From assembly GCA_017432445.1 (NCBI GenBank), contig JAFRJC010000120.1:1-64000 (forward strand): a stretch of DNA of 64,000 nucleotides. Reading direction: 5' to 3'. The translations under genes and the position numbers were made by a program. The first letter of the stretch is position 1. Each line of letters opens with the position of its first letter. Under the pieces are notes generated by a model that was given only the letters and a program-made list of their open reading frames with translations, had not been told where the DNA came from and searched no databases. The stretch comes from Eggerthellaceae bacterium. GTDB taxonomy: Bacteria > Actinomycetota > Coriobacteriia > Coriobacteriales > Eggerthellaceae. This document shows, piece after piece, positions 54,598 to 63,378 of this stretch.

Positions 54598-55878
54598 ATG
54601 GCAATCGACCGCCATGAACTTTGGGGTAATCTCGGTATGGATTTGGAAACCCACGACGTGCTGTGCTCCGTGCTGCCGCAGGCGTTCGGCGATGTGTACC
54701 TTTCGCAGGAAAACCGTCCTGAAGGCATGGCCTTCTGGGACATGGTCGTCGCTGACGTTCACGGCATCCGCCCGCAAGAGCTCGTCGACGAGCAGGCCAA
54801 GGGCCGCAAAGTGTTCGGCACCTTCTGCACCTACGTACCCGACGAGGTTGTCATCGCCGCTGACGGTATCGTGACCGGCCTTTGTGGCGGCTCGCAGTTT
54901 TGGGTACCCGAAGGCGAGAAGTACCTACCCGCCGACATGTGCCCGCTGATCAAGGCATCCCTTGGCGCCCGCATGGGCAAGACGTGCCCCTTCTTCCGCA
55001 TCGTCGACCAGATCGTGGGCGAGACCACCTGTGACGGCAAGAAGAAGATGTACGAGATCATGGCCGAAGACGTGCCGATGTACATCATGAACCTCCCCAA
55101 CATGAAGCGCCCGCAGGACGTCGCCGCCTTCGCGGACGAAATCGCCCTGTTCAAGGCCAATGTCGAGGAAGTTACCGGCAATGAGATCACGGTCGAGAAG
55201 CTGGCAGAGGCCATCAAGGTCATCAACGAGCGTCGCAAGGCGCTGGCGCGCGTGTACGAGACCCGCAAGAATTCCGACGTCATTCCCATCTCCGGTACCG
55301 ACGCCCTGCTCATGATGCAGATTGCCTTCTTCGATGACCCGGTTCGCTGCGCCCAGATGGCCAACAAGCTGGCTGATGAGCTCGAGCAGCGCCTGGTCGA
55401 CGGCGTCTCGGTCTTCCCGGCTGGCACAAAGCGCATCCTGCTCACCGGCACCCCGCTGGCTATCCCCAACTGGAAGCTGCATCACATCATTGAGACCTCC
55501 GGTGCTGCCATCGTTTGCGAGGAGAACTGCACGGGCACCAAGTTCTTCACGAACCTGGTCGACGAGTCGCAGACCACGCTCGAGGGCATGTACCAAGCGC
55601 TGGCCGAGCGCTACATGAAGATCAACTGCGCTTGCTTCACGCCGAACAAGACCCGCATCGACGAGGTTCTCGCGCTCGCGAAGGAATACAAGGTCGACGG
55701 CGTCATCAACACGAACCTCAAGTTCTGCACGACGTTCAAGACCGAGGCGCCTGCGCTTGAGAAGGCTCTCGAGGAAGCCGGCATCCCCGTCCTCGACATC
55801 GAGACAGACTACACCGACAACGACGCAGAGCAGCTGCGCACCCGTATTGGCGCATTCGTCGAGATGCTGAGCGAATAA
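54598..55878 (+). CDS. Double-cubane cluster protein (2-hydroxyacyl-CoA dehydratase-like)
   Basis: The 426-residue protein belongs to the HgdB/FldC superfamily branch that includes YjiM and the Carboxydothermus double-cubane protein. Cys-containing segments are KVFGTFCTYVPDEVV, CPFFRIVDQIVGETTCDGKK, VCEENCTGTKF and NCACFTPNKTR. It has no CoA-dehydratase partner subunit, whereas an activase is encoded three genes downstream. Double-cubane proteins carry an [8Fe-9S] cluster and reduce small molecules (acetylene, azide, hydrazine in vitro); the natural substrate is unknown. GAGAGGAA precedes the ATG. Confidence 0.87.
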   Translation: MAIDRHELWGNLGMDLETHDVLCSVLPQAFGDVYLSQENRPEGMAFWDMVVADVHGIRPQELVDEQAKGRKVFGTFCTYVPDEVVIAADGIVTGLCGGSQFWVPEGEKYLPADMCPLIKASLGARMGKTCPFFRIVDQIVGETTCDGKKKMYEIMAEDVPMYIMNLPNMKRPQDVAAFADEIALFKANVEEVTGNEITVEKLAEAIKVINERRKALARVYETRKNSDVIPISGTDALLMMQIAFFDDPVRCAQMANKLADELEQRLVDGVSVFPAGTKRILLTGTPLAIPNWKLHHIIETSGAAIVCEENCTGTKFFTNLVDESQTTLEGMYQALAERYMKINCACFTPNKTRIDEVLALAKEYKVDGVINTNLKFCTTFKTEAPALEKALEEAGIPVLDIETDYTDNDAEQLRTRIGAFVEMLSE

Positions 55879-55934
55879 TCACTGACAAGCGCTGCGGGAG
55901 GGCGGTCCCTCTCGCAGCGTCTTTGGGAAATCGG

Positions 55935-56246
55935 ATGCGCATGGACTTGGGCGAGCGTATAGAGCAGGCACGGCAAGAGAACCCTGGGGTTCGCATCGAC
56001 TGCTACGTGCTGTTCGAGAGCCACACTGACGCGATGCAGCTTTACGAGCTTTCGCGAGCGGCGGGCTTGGGTGCACGCATTTCGACGACACCGCGACAAG
56101 CGAGGTCGAGCTGCGGTGTGGCGCTTCTCGTCAGCTGCGACGAAGCCAAAGCGGTGGAGACGATCGCGCTCGATTCCAACACCCCTTTCGAGAACATCGT
56201 GCCGCTCCCCAACCAGATAACCCCGCATCGTGATGTATATTGCTAA
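55935..56246 (+). CDS. DUF3343 (putative Se/S carrier-like) protein, first copy
   Basis: The 103-residue protein shows the DUF3343 pattern: YVLFESHTDAMQLYELSRAA, GARISTTPRQARSSCGVALLV. The conserved Cys lies in SSCG. DUF3343 proteins are small putative selenium or sulfur carriers often next to cysteine desulfurases and selenium genes. It is the second gene of the cluster, 56 bp after the double-cubane gene. ATG 55941 is an alternative start. A second DUF3343 gene follows the desulfurase. Confidence 0.78.
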   Translation: MRMDLGERIEQARQENPGVRIDCYVLFESHTDAMQLYELSRAAGLGARISTTPRQARSSCGVALLVSCDEAKAVETIALDSNTPFENIVPLPNQITPHRDVYC

Positions 56247-56249
56247 GGT

Positions 56250-56309
56250 GGGACGGGTATCCCGGATACAAATCCCATCCGTGGGATTTGTATCCTGGAT
56301 ACCCGTCCC
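56250..56309. repeat. 60-bp near-perfect palindrome in the desulfurase operon
   Basis: Two 28-base arms with one mismatch are separated by the loop TCCG; the arms begin GGGACGGGTATCC and end GGATACCCGTCCC. It fills the gap between the first DUF3343 gene (ends 56246) and the desulfurase (starts 56334). It has no T tract and so is not a standard terminator. It may stabilise mRNA, regulate the desulfurase, or be a small mobile palindrome. Confidence 0.9.
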
Positions 56310-56333
56310 GCATTATAGAAGGAGAGGAAACGC

Positions 56334-57476
56334 TTGATTTATTTCGACAACGCTGCAACCACCTGCATGAAACCGCCCGAGGTGGCGGTTGCCGTGGCGC
56401 GTGCAATCGACTCGTTCGGCGGCGTAGGTCGCGGGGTTCACGAGGCTTCCCTCGACGCGGGGATGACGGTGTTCTCAGCACGTCAGCGGATTGCGAACTT
56501 GTTCGGTTATCCGAATCCCAAGCAGCTTTCATTCGCGTACAACGCGACCGAAGCCTTGAACATCGCAATCTGCGGATTGCTCGAACCAGGGGACCATACC
56601 GTAACCACCGCGGCATCACACAATTCCGTGCTGCGCCCGCTGTTCCGCGCCCAAGACTCTGGACTTGCCGAGGTGACAATCGTTCCCATCGGTCCAGATG
56701 GGTCGATCGATTACGACGAGTTCGAAGCCGCATTCAGGCCGAATACGCGTCTGGCTGCGGTTACGCATGCCTCCAACCTGACGGGGGACGTGTACGACAT
56801 CGCGCGCATGGCCGAAATCGCGCATGCGCACGGCGCCTTCCTCGTCGTGGATGCAGCCCAGACGGCTGGCATTGTGGACATCGACATGACATCCGACAAC
56901 CTCGACGTAGTCTGCTTCACTGGGCACAAGAGCCTTTACGGCCCGCAGGGTACAGGCGGTCTATGCGTCAGGGAGGGCATCGACATCAAGCCTTTCAAGG
57001 TAGGCGGATCGGGTACGCACAGCTATGACCGCGAGCATCCCTCGTTCATGCCTGAGCGACTGGAGGCTGGCACCCTCAATGCTCACGGAGTTGCGGGCCT
57101 GCTGGCTGGCGTGACCTACATCACCGACAAGGGCGTTGACGTCATTCGCGCTGAAACGCAGGCTTTGGCCTCCCGTTTTGAGAATGGCGTGCGCGAGATT
57201 GGCAACGTGAAGCTCTATGGAGGCGGCGGAATGGACCGCACGGGCATTATCACGCTCAACATTGGTGATTTCGATTCGGCCCTGGTTGCAGATCTGCTCA
57301 ACGCCGAGTTCGGCATCTGCACCCGTGCGGGAGCTCACTGCGCCCCGCTCATGCACGAAGCGCTCGGGACAGACCAGCAGGGGGCAGTGCGTTTCAGCTT
57401 TTCGCACTTCAACACCGAAGAGCAGGTTGATGCTGGTATTGCCGCTATAACCGAAATAGCCAAGGAGCTTTCGTAA
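56334..57476 (+). CDS. Cysteine desulfurase-family PLP enzyme
   Basis: The 380-residue aminotransferase class V protein has the PLP-lysine motif TGHKSLYGPQGTGG, cofactor-contact residues in ASHNSV and VVDAAQTAG, and an active-site cysteine in TRAGAHCAPLMHEALGT. The short Cys loop is like SufS/CsdB rather than IscS. It should release S or Se from cysteine or selenocysteine. The start is TTG after AAGGAGAGG. Its stop overlaps the ATG of the second DUF3343 gene, so that carrier is its likely acceptor. Confidence 0.92.
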   Translation: MIYFDNAATTCMKPPEVAVAVARAIDSFGGVGRGVHEASLDAGMTVFSARQRIANLFGYPNPKQLSFAYNATEALNIAICGLLEPGDHTVTTAASHNSVLRPLFRAQDSGLAEVTIVPIGPDGSIDYDEFEAAFRPNTRLAAVTHASNLTGDVYDIARMAEIAHAHGAFLVVDAAQTAGIVDIDMTSDNLDVVCFTGHKSLYGPQGTGGLCVREGIDIKPFKVGGSGTHSYDREHPSFMPERLEAGTLNAHGVAGLLAGVTYITDKGVDVIRAETQALASRFENGVREIGNVKLYGGGGMDRTGIITLNIGDFDSALVADLLNAEFGICTRAGAHCAPLMHEALGTDQQGAVRFSFSHFNTEEQVDAGIAAITEIAKELS

Positions 57477-57715
57477 TGCGCGAGAAGACGTTGAAACAGG
57501 TTGTGACTTTCGCAACGACATCCGATGCCATGGCGATGGAGGCGGCGGCGCGCGAATTCGGCATCCCAGGGCGCGTGATTCCCGTACCTTCGGAAATCAG
57601 CGCTGGATGCGGGCTTTCGTGGTGTGCGGGCATAGATGAGAAGGAAGCCCTTCTGGCAGGGATCGAGAAGCATTCTCTTTCGTATGAGGGCTTTTTCGAA
57701 GTATTAATGTATTAA
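57476..57715 (+). CDS. DUF3343 (putative Se/S carrier-like) protein, second copy
   Basis: The 79-residue protein contains FATTSDAMAMEAAAREFGIP, then PSEISAGCGLSWCAG with two conserved Cys, the typical carrier motif of DUF3343. It is translationally coupled to the desulfurase gene (TAATG) and precedes the activase gene. It probably accepts S or Se as persulfide or selenopersulfide. Confidence 0.85.
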   Translation: MREKTLKQVVTFATTSDAMAMEAAAREFGIPGRVIPVPSEISAGCGLSWCAGIDEKEALLAGIEKHSLSYEGFFEVLMY

Positions 57716-57783
57716 ACGCGGAAATGAGCAAAAGAGGAGTCTCCTTCTCTGCTCATTTTAAAAACGGTTGGATGGGGGATGCT

Positions 57784-58530
57784 ATGCGCATCGGCATTGA
57801 TATCGGATCGACGGCGGCAAAGGCCGCGGCGCTCGAAGGCGACGAACTGGTCTGCACGCTTGTTGTGCCGACGGGCTTTAACGGCGTGGATGCAGCGATG
57901 CGTCTGGCCGACGGGTTGCGTGCGCAGGGCATCGACCCTACGGCATGCGACGCGAACGTCGTCGCTACGGGTTACGGTAGGATTTCGGTTCCTTACGCTG
58001 GCAAAACCGTTACCGAAATCACCTGTCACGGTCGTGGTGCAACGTACCTGTTCGGCGGAAACGGCACGATTATCGATGTTGGCGGGCAGGATACCAAGGT
58101 TATCCAACTTCAAGATGGCAAGGTGAAGAAGTTCGTGATGAACGACAAGTGCGCTGCGGGAACGGGCAAGTTCCTCGAGGTCATAGCCGACCGTATGGGG
58201 GTCACTCAAGAAGAGCTCGCGACACTGGCGGCCGCCGGAGAGCCCACCCAAATTTCCAGCATGTGCACCGTGTTCGCCGAATCGGAAGTTATTTCGCTCA
58301 TCGGCAAGGGCGAGCCACGCGAGAACATCGCCAACGGCGTCATCGAATCCGTTATCACCAAGGTCGCCTCGCTTGCCGGCAACCTCGTGCAAGGTGACGT
58401 CTTCCTCACCGGCGGGCTTTGCGACAACGACTACGTTCTGGAGCGATTGTCGAGCCATCTGGGCAAGCCCGTCTGCACTGACCCGAATGCACGCTATGCC
58501 GGAGCGATAGGCGCAGCACTTTCAATCTAG
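57784..58530 (+). CDS. Acyl-CoA dehydratase activase (double-cubane reductase)
   Basis: The 248-residue protein is an HgdC/FldI-type ATPase of the ASKHA fold. It has phosphate loop IGIDIGSTAAKAAAL, the cluster cysteine in NDKCAAGTGKFLE, IDVGGQDTKVI, and a second cysteine in SSMCTVFAESEV. The homodimer holds one [4Fe-4S] cluster and drives low-potential electrons into its partner by ATP hydrolysis. Here the partner is the double-cubane protein at 54598. ATG 57784 follows GGGGGAT; longer starts would add a non-conserved tail. Confidence 0.92.
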   Translation: MRIGIDIGSTAAKAAALEGDELVCTLVVPTGFNGVDAAMRLADGLRAQGIDPTACDANVVATGYGRISVPYAGKTVTEITCHGRGATYLFGGNGTIIDVGGQDTKVIQLQDGKVKKFVMNDKCAAGTGKFLEVIADRMGVTQEELATLAAAGEPTQISSMCTVFAESEVISLIGKGEPRENIANGVIESVITKVASLAGNLVQGDVFLTGGLCDNDYVLERLSSHLGKPVCTDPNARYAGAIGAALSI

Positions 58531-58903: not shown

Positions 58904-58963
58904 ACTGGCATTAATAGCTGCGACAACCCATTAATCTGCGTAATAATTTGAAAGGAGTGGTGA

Positions 58964-60298
58964 GTGCACATGAAGCTAACCATTGGAAACCTGCATGTGC
59001 AGGATGTCTGCCTTGGGTCAGAGAATTCCTTCAAAGATGGAATCCTGACCATCGACAAGGAGGCAGCCATCGCGTACCTGAAGGAGGAGGACGACCACAT
59101 CACCGATTTGGATATCGTGATCGCTCATCCTGGTGATGACACGCGCATCGTGCCTGTCATCGAGACCATCGAGCCGCGCGTGCGCATGGACGGGCGTTGC
59201 CTGTTCCCGGGCGTCACTGGCGACCTCGTACCTGCTGGCGATGGCGACCTGAAGGCCTTCAAGGGCTGCTGCGTCACCGTGGTCGGCAAGGAGTGGGGCA
59301 GCTTCGGCGACGGCGTTATCGACATGGGCGGAGAAGGCGCCAAGCAGACGTACTTCTCGAAGCTCATCAACATCTGCCTCGTGGGCGACACCGACGAGGA
59401 GTTCGAGCGCCATGAGCAGCAGAAGATGAACCACGCACTGCGCTGGGCGGGTCACCGCTTCGCAGAGTGGATCGGCCAGATCGCCAAGGACATCGAGGCC
59501 GAGGACACCGAGGTCTATGAGTTCGATCCCATCACCAAGCGCGAAGCTGCCAAGAACGATCTGCCGAACGTGGTTGCCGTTCTGCAGCCTCAGTCCCAGA
59601 TGGAAGCCCTCGGCTACAACGACCTGTGGTACGGCTGGGATATGAACAAGTACCTGCCGAGCTTCGTCAGCCCCACCGAGGTGTTCGACGGCGCTATGAT
59701 CTCCGGTTCGTTCATGCCCGCATCCTCTAAGTGGTCCACCTACGAGATGCAGAACTTCCCCATCCTGAAGGAGCTCTTCGCTGAGGATGGCAAGGAGTTC
59801 AACTTCATCGGCGTCATCATGTCCAACCTCAACGTTGCCCTGGACCAGAAAGAGCGTTCCGCCATCATGGTCCGCAACATGGCCCTCTCGCTCGGTGCTG
59901 ACTACGCGCTGGTCACCGAGGAAGGCTACGGCAACCCCGACACCGATTACGTCCGCTGCCAGGTCATCCTCGAGGATGCTGGCATCCCCGTCGTCGGCGT
60001 TTCCGACGAGTCCGACGGCCGCGATGGCTTCGGCCAGCCGTTGGTCGTGCTCAACGAGAAGCTGACCGCGCTCGTGTCCACCGGCAACGTCGGCGCGCTT
60101 TCCGACCTGCCCGCCTGCGCTACGGTCATCGGCAACCTCGAAGCTATGAACCGCGACGGCATGTCCGGCTCTTGGGGCTATGACGAGATCCTGGGCAAGT
60201 CCGCCCGCGACGATGGCTCCATCATCATGGAAAACAACAACTGGTTCTGCGGTAACCACATTTCTGGTTTCGCCGTCAAGACCATGGTCGAAGTGTAA
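58964..60298 (+). CDS. grdI: Betaine reductase component B, alpha-type subunit (GrdI/GrdE family)
   Basis: The 444-residue protein matches the GrdE/GrdG/GrdI family over its length (KLTIGNLHVQDVCLGSENSF at the start; GKEWGSFGDGVIDMGGEGA; NFIGVIMSNLNVALDQKER). GrdE of glycine reductase is a proprotein cut at a mid-chain cysteine (residue 242 in the clostridial protein) to make a pyruvoyl group. The equivalent stretch here reads ISGSFMPASSKW (246-257), and no cysteine occurs between residue 138 and about 331. It therefore should stay uncut, as reported for betaine-specific component B. The BCCT gene downstream supports betaine. GTG 58964 fits AAAGGAG best; ATG 58970 is possible. Confidence 0.88.
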   Translation: MHMKLTIGNLHVQDVCLGSENSFKDGILTIDKEAAIAYLKEEDDHITDLDIVIAHPGDDTRIVPVIETIEPRVRMDGRCLFPGVTGDLVPAGDGDLKAFKGCCVTVVGKEWGSFGDGVIDMGGEGAKQTYFSKLINICLVGDTDEEFERHEQQKMNHALRWAGHRFAEWIGQIAKDIEAEDTEVYEFDPITKREAAKNDLPNVVAVLQPQSQMEALGYNDLWYGWDMNKYLPSFVSPTEVFDGAMISGSFMPASSKWSTYEMQNFPILKELFAEDGKEFNFIGVIMSNLNVALDQKERSAIMVRNMALSLGADYALVTEEGYGNPDTDYVRCQVILEDAGIPVVGVSDESDGRDGFGQPLVVLNEKLTALVSTGNVGALSDLPACATVIGNLEAMNRDGMSGSWGYDEILGKSARDDGSIIMENNNWFCGNHISGFAVKTMVEV

Positions 60299-60312: not shown

Positions 60313-61638
60313 ATGACCAAGAAGGTTATCTACTACGTCAACCAGTTCTTCGGCGGCATCGGCGGCGAAGACACGGCTGATTTCGAGCCGGAAATTCGCG
60401 AAGGCCAGGTAGGCCCCGCAACGGCTGCTGCCAGCCAGCTGGAAGACGCGGAGATCACGCACACCATCATCTGTGGTGACAACTTCATGGGCTCGAACAC
60501 CGAGGAAGCACTCGACCGCATCGCCAAGATGCTCGAGGACAAGGAGTTCGACCTGCTCATCGCCGGTCCCGCCTTCCAGGCAGGCCGTTACGGCGTGGCA
60601 TGCGGCAACGTGTGCAAGATGGTTCAGGATCGTTTCGGCAAGCCGACCGTCACGTCCATCAACGTCGAGAGCCCTGGCGTCGAGATGTTCAAGAAGGACA
60701 TCATCATCGTGGAGGGCGCTAACGCTGCCGCCAAGATGCGCAAGGACCTCAAGAACCTCATCAAGGTCGCCAACAAGATGCTGAAGGGCGAGCAGCTCCA
60801 GTGCGCAGTCGACGGCTACTTCCCGCGCGGCAAGCGTGCCGAGCTGTGGCTCGAGGATACGCGTGAGAACACCGCAGCTTATCGTGGCGTTCAGATGCTC
60901 ATCAAGAAGATCAAGGGCGAGGATTACCAGACCGAGCTCATCATCCCGAAGAAGGATGTTGTGCCCATCGCCGATCCTGTCAAGCTGGACGAGGCCGTTA
61001 TCGCTCTGGTCACCACTGGCGGTATCGTACCGGTCGACAATCCCGACCGCATCCAGTCCGCTTCCGCCACGCGTTGGGGCCGTTACGACATCTCCGGTGT
61101 CGACTCGCTGCCCAACCGTGCAGCCGAAGGCTACAAGACGATTCACGCAGGTTTCGACCCGGCTGCTGCCGACGCCGATCCGAACGTCATCATGCCTGTC
61201 GACGCGATGCGCGCTTACGAGAAGGAAGGCAAGTACGCCCGCCTGCACAACTACTTCTACTCGACGGTAGGCACGGGCACGACGGAATCCGAGGCCGCTC
61301 GCATGGCTTCCGAGATTATCCCGTACCTCGAGGAGGACGGCGTCAACGCCATCATCCTCACCAGCACTTGAGGCACCTGCACTCGTTGCGGGGCAACGAT
61401 GGTCAAAGTTTTCGAACGTGCTGGTTTCCCGATCGTTCATGTGTGCAATCTTATTCCGGTGTCCACGACCGTTGGCGCCAACAGGATGGTTCCCACCATC
61501 TCCATTCCGTATCCGCTCGGTGACCCGAACACGCCGAAGGAAGAGCAGTGGAAGCTGCGCTACCACCGCGTGGGCGTCGCTATTGATGCGCTCGCCACTC
61601 CGGTCGAGGAGCAGACGGTCTTCAAGGTAAAGATCTAA
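60313..61638 (+). CDS. grdH: Betaine reductase component B selenoprotein (GrdH/GrdB family)
   Basis: The 441-residue protein has an in-frame UGA at 61369-61371 (codon 353). The reading frame continues without another stop for 88 codons with family-like sequence, and the site reads TST-Sec-GTCTRCGA, the UxxCxxC-type motif of selenoprotein B. A hairpin suited to be a SECIS lies 11 nt after the UGA. The N-terminal part (YYVNQFFGGIGGEDTADFEP) and FQAGRYGVACG are typical of the family. It forms the substrate-activating component with the preceding subunit and passes a carboxymethyl group to GrdA. GrdA, GrdC, GrdD and the sel genes are not in the window. GGGAGGAGG precedes the ATG. Confidence 0.93.
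61383..61399 (+). promoter_or_regulatory. Candidate bacterial SECIS hairpin
   Basis: TCGTTGC-GGG-GCAACGA forms a perfect 7-bp stem with a G-rich apex, beginning 11 nt after the Sec UGA. This is the position expected for a SelB-bound SECIS. Confidence 0.7.
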
Positions 61639-61806: not shown

Positions 61807-63378
61807 ATGAATAAAAACGAGTTTACGAATCCGGTATTTGTTATCGGATTGCTGTTAGCCGCTGGGCTATCCATCTGGGGCATAGTGGGCAACGAAAGCT
61901 TCTCTGCTGTCGCTGGCGCTATGTTCACGTTCTTGACGACTGATTTCGGGTGGTTGTATCTGCTCGTCATGCTTTCGTTCGTGTTCTTCGCTATTGGACT
62001 TGCAATATCGAAGTACGGAAAGATCAAGCTTGGGCCGGATGATTCCAAGCCTGAGTATTCCACCATGTCATGGTTCGCCATGCTTTTCGGCTGCGGCATG
62101 GGTGTTGGTCTGGTGTTCTGGGGCATTGCAGAGCCGATCTCCCATTACGTAGGGCCCATGGCTGGTATCGAGCCCAGCTCGCCGGCATCCGCCCAGTTCG
62201 CCATGTCCGCATCGTTCATGCACTGGGGTCTCCATCCCTGGGCTGGTTACGTCGTCGTCGGTCTGGCCTTGGCCTACCTGCAGTTCCGCAAGGGTAAGCC
62301 GGCGCTGATCTCCTCGGCGCTCGAGCCGCTCATCGGCGAGAAAAACGCCAAGGGTGCCCTGGGCAAGGTCGTGGACATCCTTTCCATCTTTGCAACGGTA
62401 GCCGGCGTGGTTACCTCGCTCGGTCTGGGTGTTCTGCAGATTAACGCAGGTGCTAACTACCTGTTCGGTGTTCCCATCAACTTGACAGTCCAGATTATCA
62501 TCATTGCTATTATCTCGGTCATATACATCGGTTCTTCTGTCGTCGGCATCGACAGGGGCATCAAGGTCATCGGCGACCTGAACCTGTGGATCGCCATTGG
62601 CGTGCTCCTCGTTTGCTTCATCGTGGGCCCGAAGGTCGACACGCTCAACAACCTGGTCGGCGGCCTCGGCGATTACTTCGGCACGTTCTTCCAGAGCTCG
62701 CTCGGCATCAGCGCCTACGGCGACAACGGCTGGATGCTCGGCTGGCGCGTCTTCTACTGGGCATGGTGGATTGCATGGGCACCCTTCGTGGGCGTCTTCA
62801 TTGCCCGCATTTCCAAGGGTCGCACCATTCGCGAGTTCGTGACGGGCGTTCTGCTGGTTCCTGCTGTGGCTTCCATCCTGTGGTTTGCCGTGATGGGCAC
62901 CATGGGCCTCACGCTGGCTCAGAATGGCGTTCTGACTCCCGATCAGGTGGCTGGCATTGCTGCCTCGCCTGAGACCGGTCTGTTCCTGGTGCTCAGCAAG
63001 TACCCGCTCGGCATGATCATTTCGGCCGTTGTGCTGCTGCTCATCTGCACGTTCTTCATCACGTCGGCGAACTCCGGCACGTTCGTTCTGGGCATGCTCT
63101 CCTCGAACGGCAACCTGAATCCGTCGAACGCCAAGAAGATCCTCTGGGGCGTTATCCAGTCCGTCCTCGCTGTGGCTCTGCTCATGGCCGGTGGTCTGAA
63201 GCCGCTGCAGACCATTTCGATTGCTGCGGCGTTCCTGTTCATCTTCATCATGATTGCCATGATGTTTGCGGTGATCAAGGCGCTTCAAGCTGACAAGGAT
63301 ACGCCCAATGTGGGTGATCCCGACTTCGTGCCCGATCCAGATGTGGCGGCTATGGAGGCTGCTGCAGATCAGTCGTAG
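61807..63378 (+). CDS. BCCT-family betaine transporter
   Basis: The 523-residue protein has about 12 membrane helices. It carries the Na-coupling motif GMGVGLVFWGIAEP (GMGxG as in BetP) and the BCCT signature WAWWIAWAPFVGVFIARISKGRTIREF-like region, of which the core is WAPFVGVFIARISKG. Substrate-cage tryptophans are present. BCCT proteins import glycine betaine, choline or carnitine. It has no long charged C-terminal osmosensing tail like BetP, so it probably feeds betaine to the reductase rather than serving osmoprotection. It lies 168 bp after grdH on the same strand; AGGGGA precedes the ATG. Confidence 0.93.
   Translation: MNKNEFTNPVFVIGLLLAAGLSIWGIVGNESFSAVAGAMFTFLTTDFGWLYLLVMLSFVFFAIGLAISKYGKIKLGPDDSKPEYSTMSWFAMLFGCGMGVGLVFWGIAEPISHYVGPMAGIEPSSPASAQFAMSASFMHWGLHPWAGYVVVGLALAYLQFRKGKPALISSALEPLIGEKNAKGALGKVVDILSIFATVAGVVTSLGLGVLQINAGANYLFGVPINLTVQIIIIAIISVIYIGSSVVGIDRGIKVIGDLNLWIAIGVLLVCFIVGPKVDTLNNLVGGLGDYFGTFFQSSLGISAYGDNGWMLGWRVFYWAWWIAWAPFVGVFIARISKGRTIREFVTGVLLVPAVASILWFAVMGTMGLTLAQNGVLTPDQVAGIAASPETGLFLVLSKYPLGMIISAVVLLLICTFFITSANSGTFVLGMLSSNGNLNPSNAKKILWGVIQSVLAVALLMAGGLKPLQTISIAAAFLFIFIMIAMMFAVIKALQADKDTPNVGDPDFVPDPDVAAMEAAADQS

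Follow-up and report, generated by a model that had tools for sequence, protein, structure and literature searches.

The window, the whole 64,000-nucleotide stretch of Eggerthellaceae DNA analyzed here, very probably encodes a GrdI subunit of betaine reductase that is uncut and lacks a pyruvoyl group derived from Cys. The related proproteins GrdE (glycine) and GrdG (sarcosine) resemble window GrdI in Pfam family (PF09338), length and partner family, but they keep N-C at the processing site, where window GrdI has S249-F250. A 2023 paper citing Bednarski 2001 (PMC10838667) had stated that GrdI has none of the conserved cysteines and is no proprotein. Our finding is thus a correct rediscovery of a missing Cys that is already in print, and window GrdI belongs, as an ordinary and well-supported case, to a known family.

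GrdE is cut at its N-C site, and the resulting Cys-derived pyruvoyl group has been characterized by mass spectrometry (PMC9908766). The exact role of this group is debated (PMC9908766, PMC10298544), so a Schiff base between it and glycine is a model rather than a settled fact. An earlier reading of the window made from sequence alone had reasoned that betaine, a quaternary amine, cannot form such a base; the argument is chemically sound, but the role of the pyruvoyl group with glycine is unsettled too (PMC9908766, PMC10298544).

The grdI gene and its genomic context

The main features of the locus are as follows (coordinates in the window).

58952..58957, + strand: likely ribosome-binding site of grdI, AAGGAG, read directly from the sequence, 12 bases before ATG 58970
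58970..60298, + strand: grdI, betaine reductase component B alpha subunit, 442 aa from ATG (PF09338, alignment of the start, clade)
59705..59713, + strand: GSF codons 248-250 (alignment with 164 full-length relatives; G-N-C in GrdE/GrdG; F250 in the pyruvoyl-Cys column)
60313..61638, + strand: grdH, betaine reductase selenoprotein B subunit, 441 aa (PF07355, 501 bits; best NCBIfam model NF040795 betaine_GrdH)
61369..61371, + strand: in-frame TGA as selenocysteine Sec353, in STUGTCTRCG (the frame runs 88 codons further with family homology)
61807..63378, + strand: BCCT-family transporter, likely for betaine uptake (PF02028, 607 bits; NF047988 glycine betaine BCCT, 631 bits)

The open frame at 58964-60298 (+) has 444 codons when counted from GTG 58964. 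The aligned relatives all begin MKL and place the start at ATG 58970, the second Met; the true residue numbers are probably 2 lower than the GTG-based ones. The protein matched PF09338 end to end (539 bits, profile positions 1-425 of 426), and its Cys residues lie at 16, 79, 102, 103, 138, 332, 385 and 429 (GTG numbering). The claim of the sequence-only reading that there is no Cys from residue 139 to about 330 is exact, with the neighboring Cys at 138 and 332. Window GrdI shared 54-99% identity (median 64) with the GrdI clade vs 32-42% with Cys-type proteins, and it scored below the cut-offs of the NCBIfam models for GrdG (300 bits, cut-off 780) and for FarE, the fluoroacetate reductase subunit (NF053623, 147.5 bits, cut-off 675).

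Among the NCBIfam models, window GrdH scored 765.3 bits on NF040795 betaine_GrdH, 532.6 on GrdF (sarcosine) and 476.4 on GrdB (glycine), the first being 10 bits under the strict cut-off (775). The transporter was likewise just under its cut-off on NF047988 (650). Most of the other GrdI loci have a grdH gene with the same STUGTCTR motif. RNA folding just 3' of the Sec codon was unremarkable relative to shuffled sequences (z of -0.64 and 0.58), and we therefore make no SECIS claim beyond the conserved Sec motif and the presence of selB. The latter lies on the window's own contig, 3.4 kb beyond the window end, and a genome search placed grdA on contig C62 and grdC and grdD together on C24. With grdI, grdH, grdA, grdC, grdD and selB found, the protein components for betaine reduction are all in the genome (3.17 Mb, 188 contigs, contamination estimate 4.8%). 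In its clade, its GSF site without the pyruvoyl Cys, its Sec-containing grdH partner and its BCCT neighbor, the window gene is the same as GrdI of betaine reductase, and it differs in nothing of substance, only in the Eggerthellaceae host and in being Cys-free over 139-331, which holds for a minority of GrdI. Its sequence and its grdI-grdH-BCCT operon thus bear out its initial identification as a betaine reductase alpha subunit.

Upstream of grdI and on the same strand, positions 54598-58530 hold a cluster encoding a double-cubane-cluster reductase (NF040772, 490 bits, cut-off 350), a member of the cysteine desulfurase family (405 bits on TIGR01977) and an activase of the CoA-dehydratase type (245 bits on TIGR00241). 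The small protein encoded at 57476-57715 resembles DUF3343 by eye. Two congeneric genomes that were searched have no PF09338 protein, so the system is distributed patchily in the genus.

The processing site across the family

The window genome encodes two further PF09338 proteins with the sites ISGNCVAACDK and VSGNCVSACDK, and window GrdI aligned to both with ISGSFMPASSK. Asn is thereby replaced by Ser249, the pyruvoyl Cys by Phe250 and the second conserved Cys by Ser254. The earlier placement of the pyruvoyl-site equivalent at GSF 248-250 (bases 59705-59713) was therefore right, as both paralogues have GNC there.

The survey for PF09338 took in 298 Coriobacteriia-class genomes, of which 11 were positive, together with 398 genomes from the phylum to which Peptostreptococcus canis belongs (119 with a match) and 11 from the small family of Proteocatella (8 with a match). 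A further 18 genomes reached from named loci were searched, and a pattern search of named genomes added 44 loci. The 164 full-length proteins analyzed are those of the fetched loci, a part of all matches in which non-GrdE matches were preferred, and by site they fell into G-S-[FY] (n = 62), G-N-C (n = 82) and something else (n = 20). In a tree built without the site columns, the 62 G-S-[FY] proteins formed a single clade (support 1.0) with no other class within, and its members span Actinomycetota, Bacillota and Fusobacteria. The Cys column of this clade holds 61 Phe and 1 Tyr (Cys in 0 of 62), and Ser249 is invariant (62/62), taking the place of an invariant Asn. The Cys-free stretch proved not to be a general feature: residues 140-330 lack Cys in only 15 of the 62 GrdI, and 30 of the 62 have a Cys at column 253 (MPCSSK). 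Among these sequences, the general feature of GrdI is the absence of the Cys from the pyruvoyl column alone, with G-S-[FY]-M as a positive signature.

The Cys was retained by all 82 GrdE/GrdG-type proteins and was missing from the site of 19 distant PF09338 members, including two FarE-type proteins. PrdA, the proprotein of D-proline reductase, is a distant homologue whose T-C-IGPASK aligns with S-F-MPASSK of window GrdI; unlike the latter, it keeps the Cys, is processed and is longer (open frames of 626-643 aa). The branching position of GrdI depends on the rooting, since the midpoint-rooted and PrdA-rooted trees disagree on whether it falls inside or beside the Cys-type proteins. On the PrdA-rooted tree, two losses and two gains of the Cys were equally parsimonious. 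Whichever rooting is used, the Cys-less proteins fall into two or more distinct regions of the PF09338 tree, one being GrdI and another holding FarE with several uncharacterised clades.

The missing Cys as a marker of betaine specificity

The sequence-only reading had proposed that the missing Cys could separate betaine reductases from glycine or sarcosine reductases, and that proteins of known specificity be aligned at this site. In Acetoanaerobium noterae the GrdE site is N-C and the GrdI site GSF; the plasmid-encoded GrdI of Enterococcus gilvus and E. raffinosus also have GSF, and the E. gilvus copy adjoins a gene annotated grdH. Peptoclostridium acidaminophilum DSM 3953, which is known to grow on or use glycine, sarcosine and betaine (PMC4056300), has two sarcosine GrdG proteins, and both have SGNCVAPCDK and thus keep the Cys. 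These named proteins agree with the proposed marker, and a betaine-specific GrdI that keeps the Cys, the case that would speak against the marker, was sought among the 62 clade members and the named references and none was found.

The partner genes were in line with this division. The GrdH partners of three G-S-F loci scored 798-834 on NF040795 (cut-off 775), whereas four Cys-type partners all scored 522-576 on the betaine model, one of them passing as GrdB (946) and one as GrdF (834). A BCCT gene was near 38 of the 45 GrdI loci with enough flank and near none of 20 GrdE-type loci (flanks of about 6 kb). We rejected BCCT adjacency as a proof of betaine, as a BCCT gene also lies beside one grdG-grdF pair of P. 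acidaminophilum.

Within the glycine, sarcosine and betaine reductases the missing Cys works as a marker, as judged by sequence (62 GrdI without it vs 82 GrdE/GrdG with it), but it fails across the whole family, in which FarE and other clades are Cys-less too. Because FarE and these other clades have other neighbors, absence of the Cys alone does not mean betaine. FarE is similar to GrdI in being Cys-less, in being described as no proprotein and in having a non-imine substrate, but it belongs to a separate clade, with the FarE site IWRYW.

Proposed mechanism and alternative explanations

By established chemistry, no imine can form at a quaternary nitrogen, which also leaves more readily, so that a carbonyl is not needed. 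In the mechanism that we propose, which follows the general reaction in the literature, GrdI and GrdH would together form a betaine-specific component B, in which the GrdH selenolate would attack the methylene carbon of betaine and trimethylamine would leave. The carboxymethyl group would then pass to GrdA and on to GrdC/GrdD, ending as acetyl phosphate. With its processing site replaced by Gly-Ser-Phe, GrdI would have no carbonyl group, and betaine would not require one, since its nitrogen is quaternary, permits no imine and leaves readily as it is.

At seven positions (W111, Y218, W225, F250, W257, Y329 and F428), 95% or more of GrdI but no more than 5% of Cys-type proteins have an aromatic residue, and two positions show the opposite change, the loss of an aromatic residue in GrdI. 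F250 occupies the old Cys site and W257 lies seven residues further. These gained aromatic residues, some of them at the former processing site, could hold the trimethylammonium group; the column statistics are compatible with such an aromatic cage, and the seven gains are a detail that is possibly new. The AlphaFold2 model of window GrdI had a mean pLDDT of 84 and a pTM of 0.88, and residues 251-255 (GTG numbering) just after the site formed a low-confidence loop (pLDDT <50). Searches of the PDB with window GrdI gave no relative by sequence (two chance matches, E of 0.25 and 0.78) and no match by fold at E <0.001, and there is thus no structural template for the site.

Aspartate decarboxylase and phosphatidylserine decarboxylase are cleaved at Gly-Ser to give a Ser-derived pyruvoyl group, and GrdI might likewise still be processed, with a cut between Gly248 and Ser249 producing a pyruvoyl group from the serine that directly precedes the old Cys position. 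Ser249, in place of an invariant Asn, is invariant in 62 of 62 GrdI, known Ser-pyruvoyl enzymes are cut at a G-S motif, and the AlphaFold2 model shows little order in the loop that follows the site. Against this, a Schiff base would be of no use to betaine, the register is one residue off from GrdE, and betaine component B, as the earlier reading noted, reportedly has uncut subunits of about 45 and 48 kDa. A. noterae, which is of the same order as P. acidaminophilum, has GSF in its GrdI. We rate serine processing as highly improbable because GrdI was reported as not a proprotein (PMC10838667, citing Bednarski 2001).

A slightly better, though still small, chance goes to a component B for some other non-imine substrate, e.g., another quaternary ammonium or sulfonium compound. 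Cys-less relatives do differ in this respect, with FarE acting on fluoroacetate and others lying near sugar or nucleoside genes, and BCCT carriers also accept carnitine, choline and other compounds; however, window GrdI is far closer to the GrdI clade than to Cys-type proteins by the identities given above, and the betaine model is the closest GrdH model for its partner. Loss of the Cys by gene decay or assembly error, which would leave the gene non-functional, is next to negligible. The assembly is indeed fragmented and has the contamination estimate noted above, but the frame is open and full-length, the motif type recurs in 62 relatives spread over Actinomycetota, Bacillota and Fusobacteria, and a 99% identical Eggerthellaceae homologue in another assembly has the same motif type and the same operon; with all 62 clade proteins sharing it, the motif is neither chance nor a sequencing error. 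We infer that the substrate of the window copy is betaine and that its chain is uncleaved; a search of the literature found no assay of a Coriobacteriia GrdI copy.

Other relatives with a missing or altered Cys

An uncharacterised Cys-less PF09338 clade (loci L191, L192, L193, L195, L196 and L199, with L189 and L190) comprises two groups with the sites VSGNYVWPAFK and VSGNYAYACFK. At L191 and L193 the Cys-less gene is preceded by a grdB-like gene with Sec (STUGTCTR). Genes that neighbor the clade in one or another of the loci examined encode an aldehyde dehydrogenase, an Fe alcohol dehydrogenase, a DeoC/LacD aldolase, a sorbose-type PTS and an aldehyde ferredoxin oxidoreductase, which suggests that the VSGNY-type clade may be a reductive selenoenzyme of sugar or aldehyde catabolism.

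Another PF09338/GrdB-like pair (L187:3700-6309) has altered sites in both subunits (alpha GNHSMQT, beta GTUGSGTR) and adjoins a Bmp/PnrA-type ABC transporter and, by eye, a molybdenum hydroxylase-like protein. Fluoroacetate reduction has been reported from Synergistota (PMC10838667); one of the two FarE-type proteins above, from a Coriobacteriia-class genome (G247, L029:1358-2623, - strand), passes the NCBIfam cut-off of 675 as a FarE equivalog with 789.6 bits, and its partner is a Sec-containing grdB-like gene (ETSTUGTSSRG). Within the G-N-C group, one protein (L205:5002-6309) carries Ser at the pyruvoyl position (VNGNSIIACDK) and lacks a grdB-like neighbor; serine-type processing and decay are both possible there.

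Implications for the family

Betaine reductase is a gut source of trimethylamine from betaine. Telling betaine-type from amine-type component B proteins at the residue level helps annotation, and is useful because the NCBIfam scan gave a named betaine model for GrdH and none for GrdI. More tentatively, and with the odds rather against it, the missing Cys may mark component B enzymes with non-imine substrates in general, the site having become part of an aromatic cage in GrdI, so that this column would predict substrate chemistry. If true, the pairing of a Cys-less alpha subunit with a non-imine substrate would offer a quick guide to uncharacterised members of the family.
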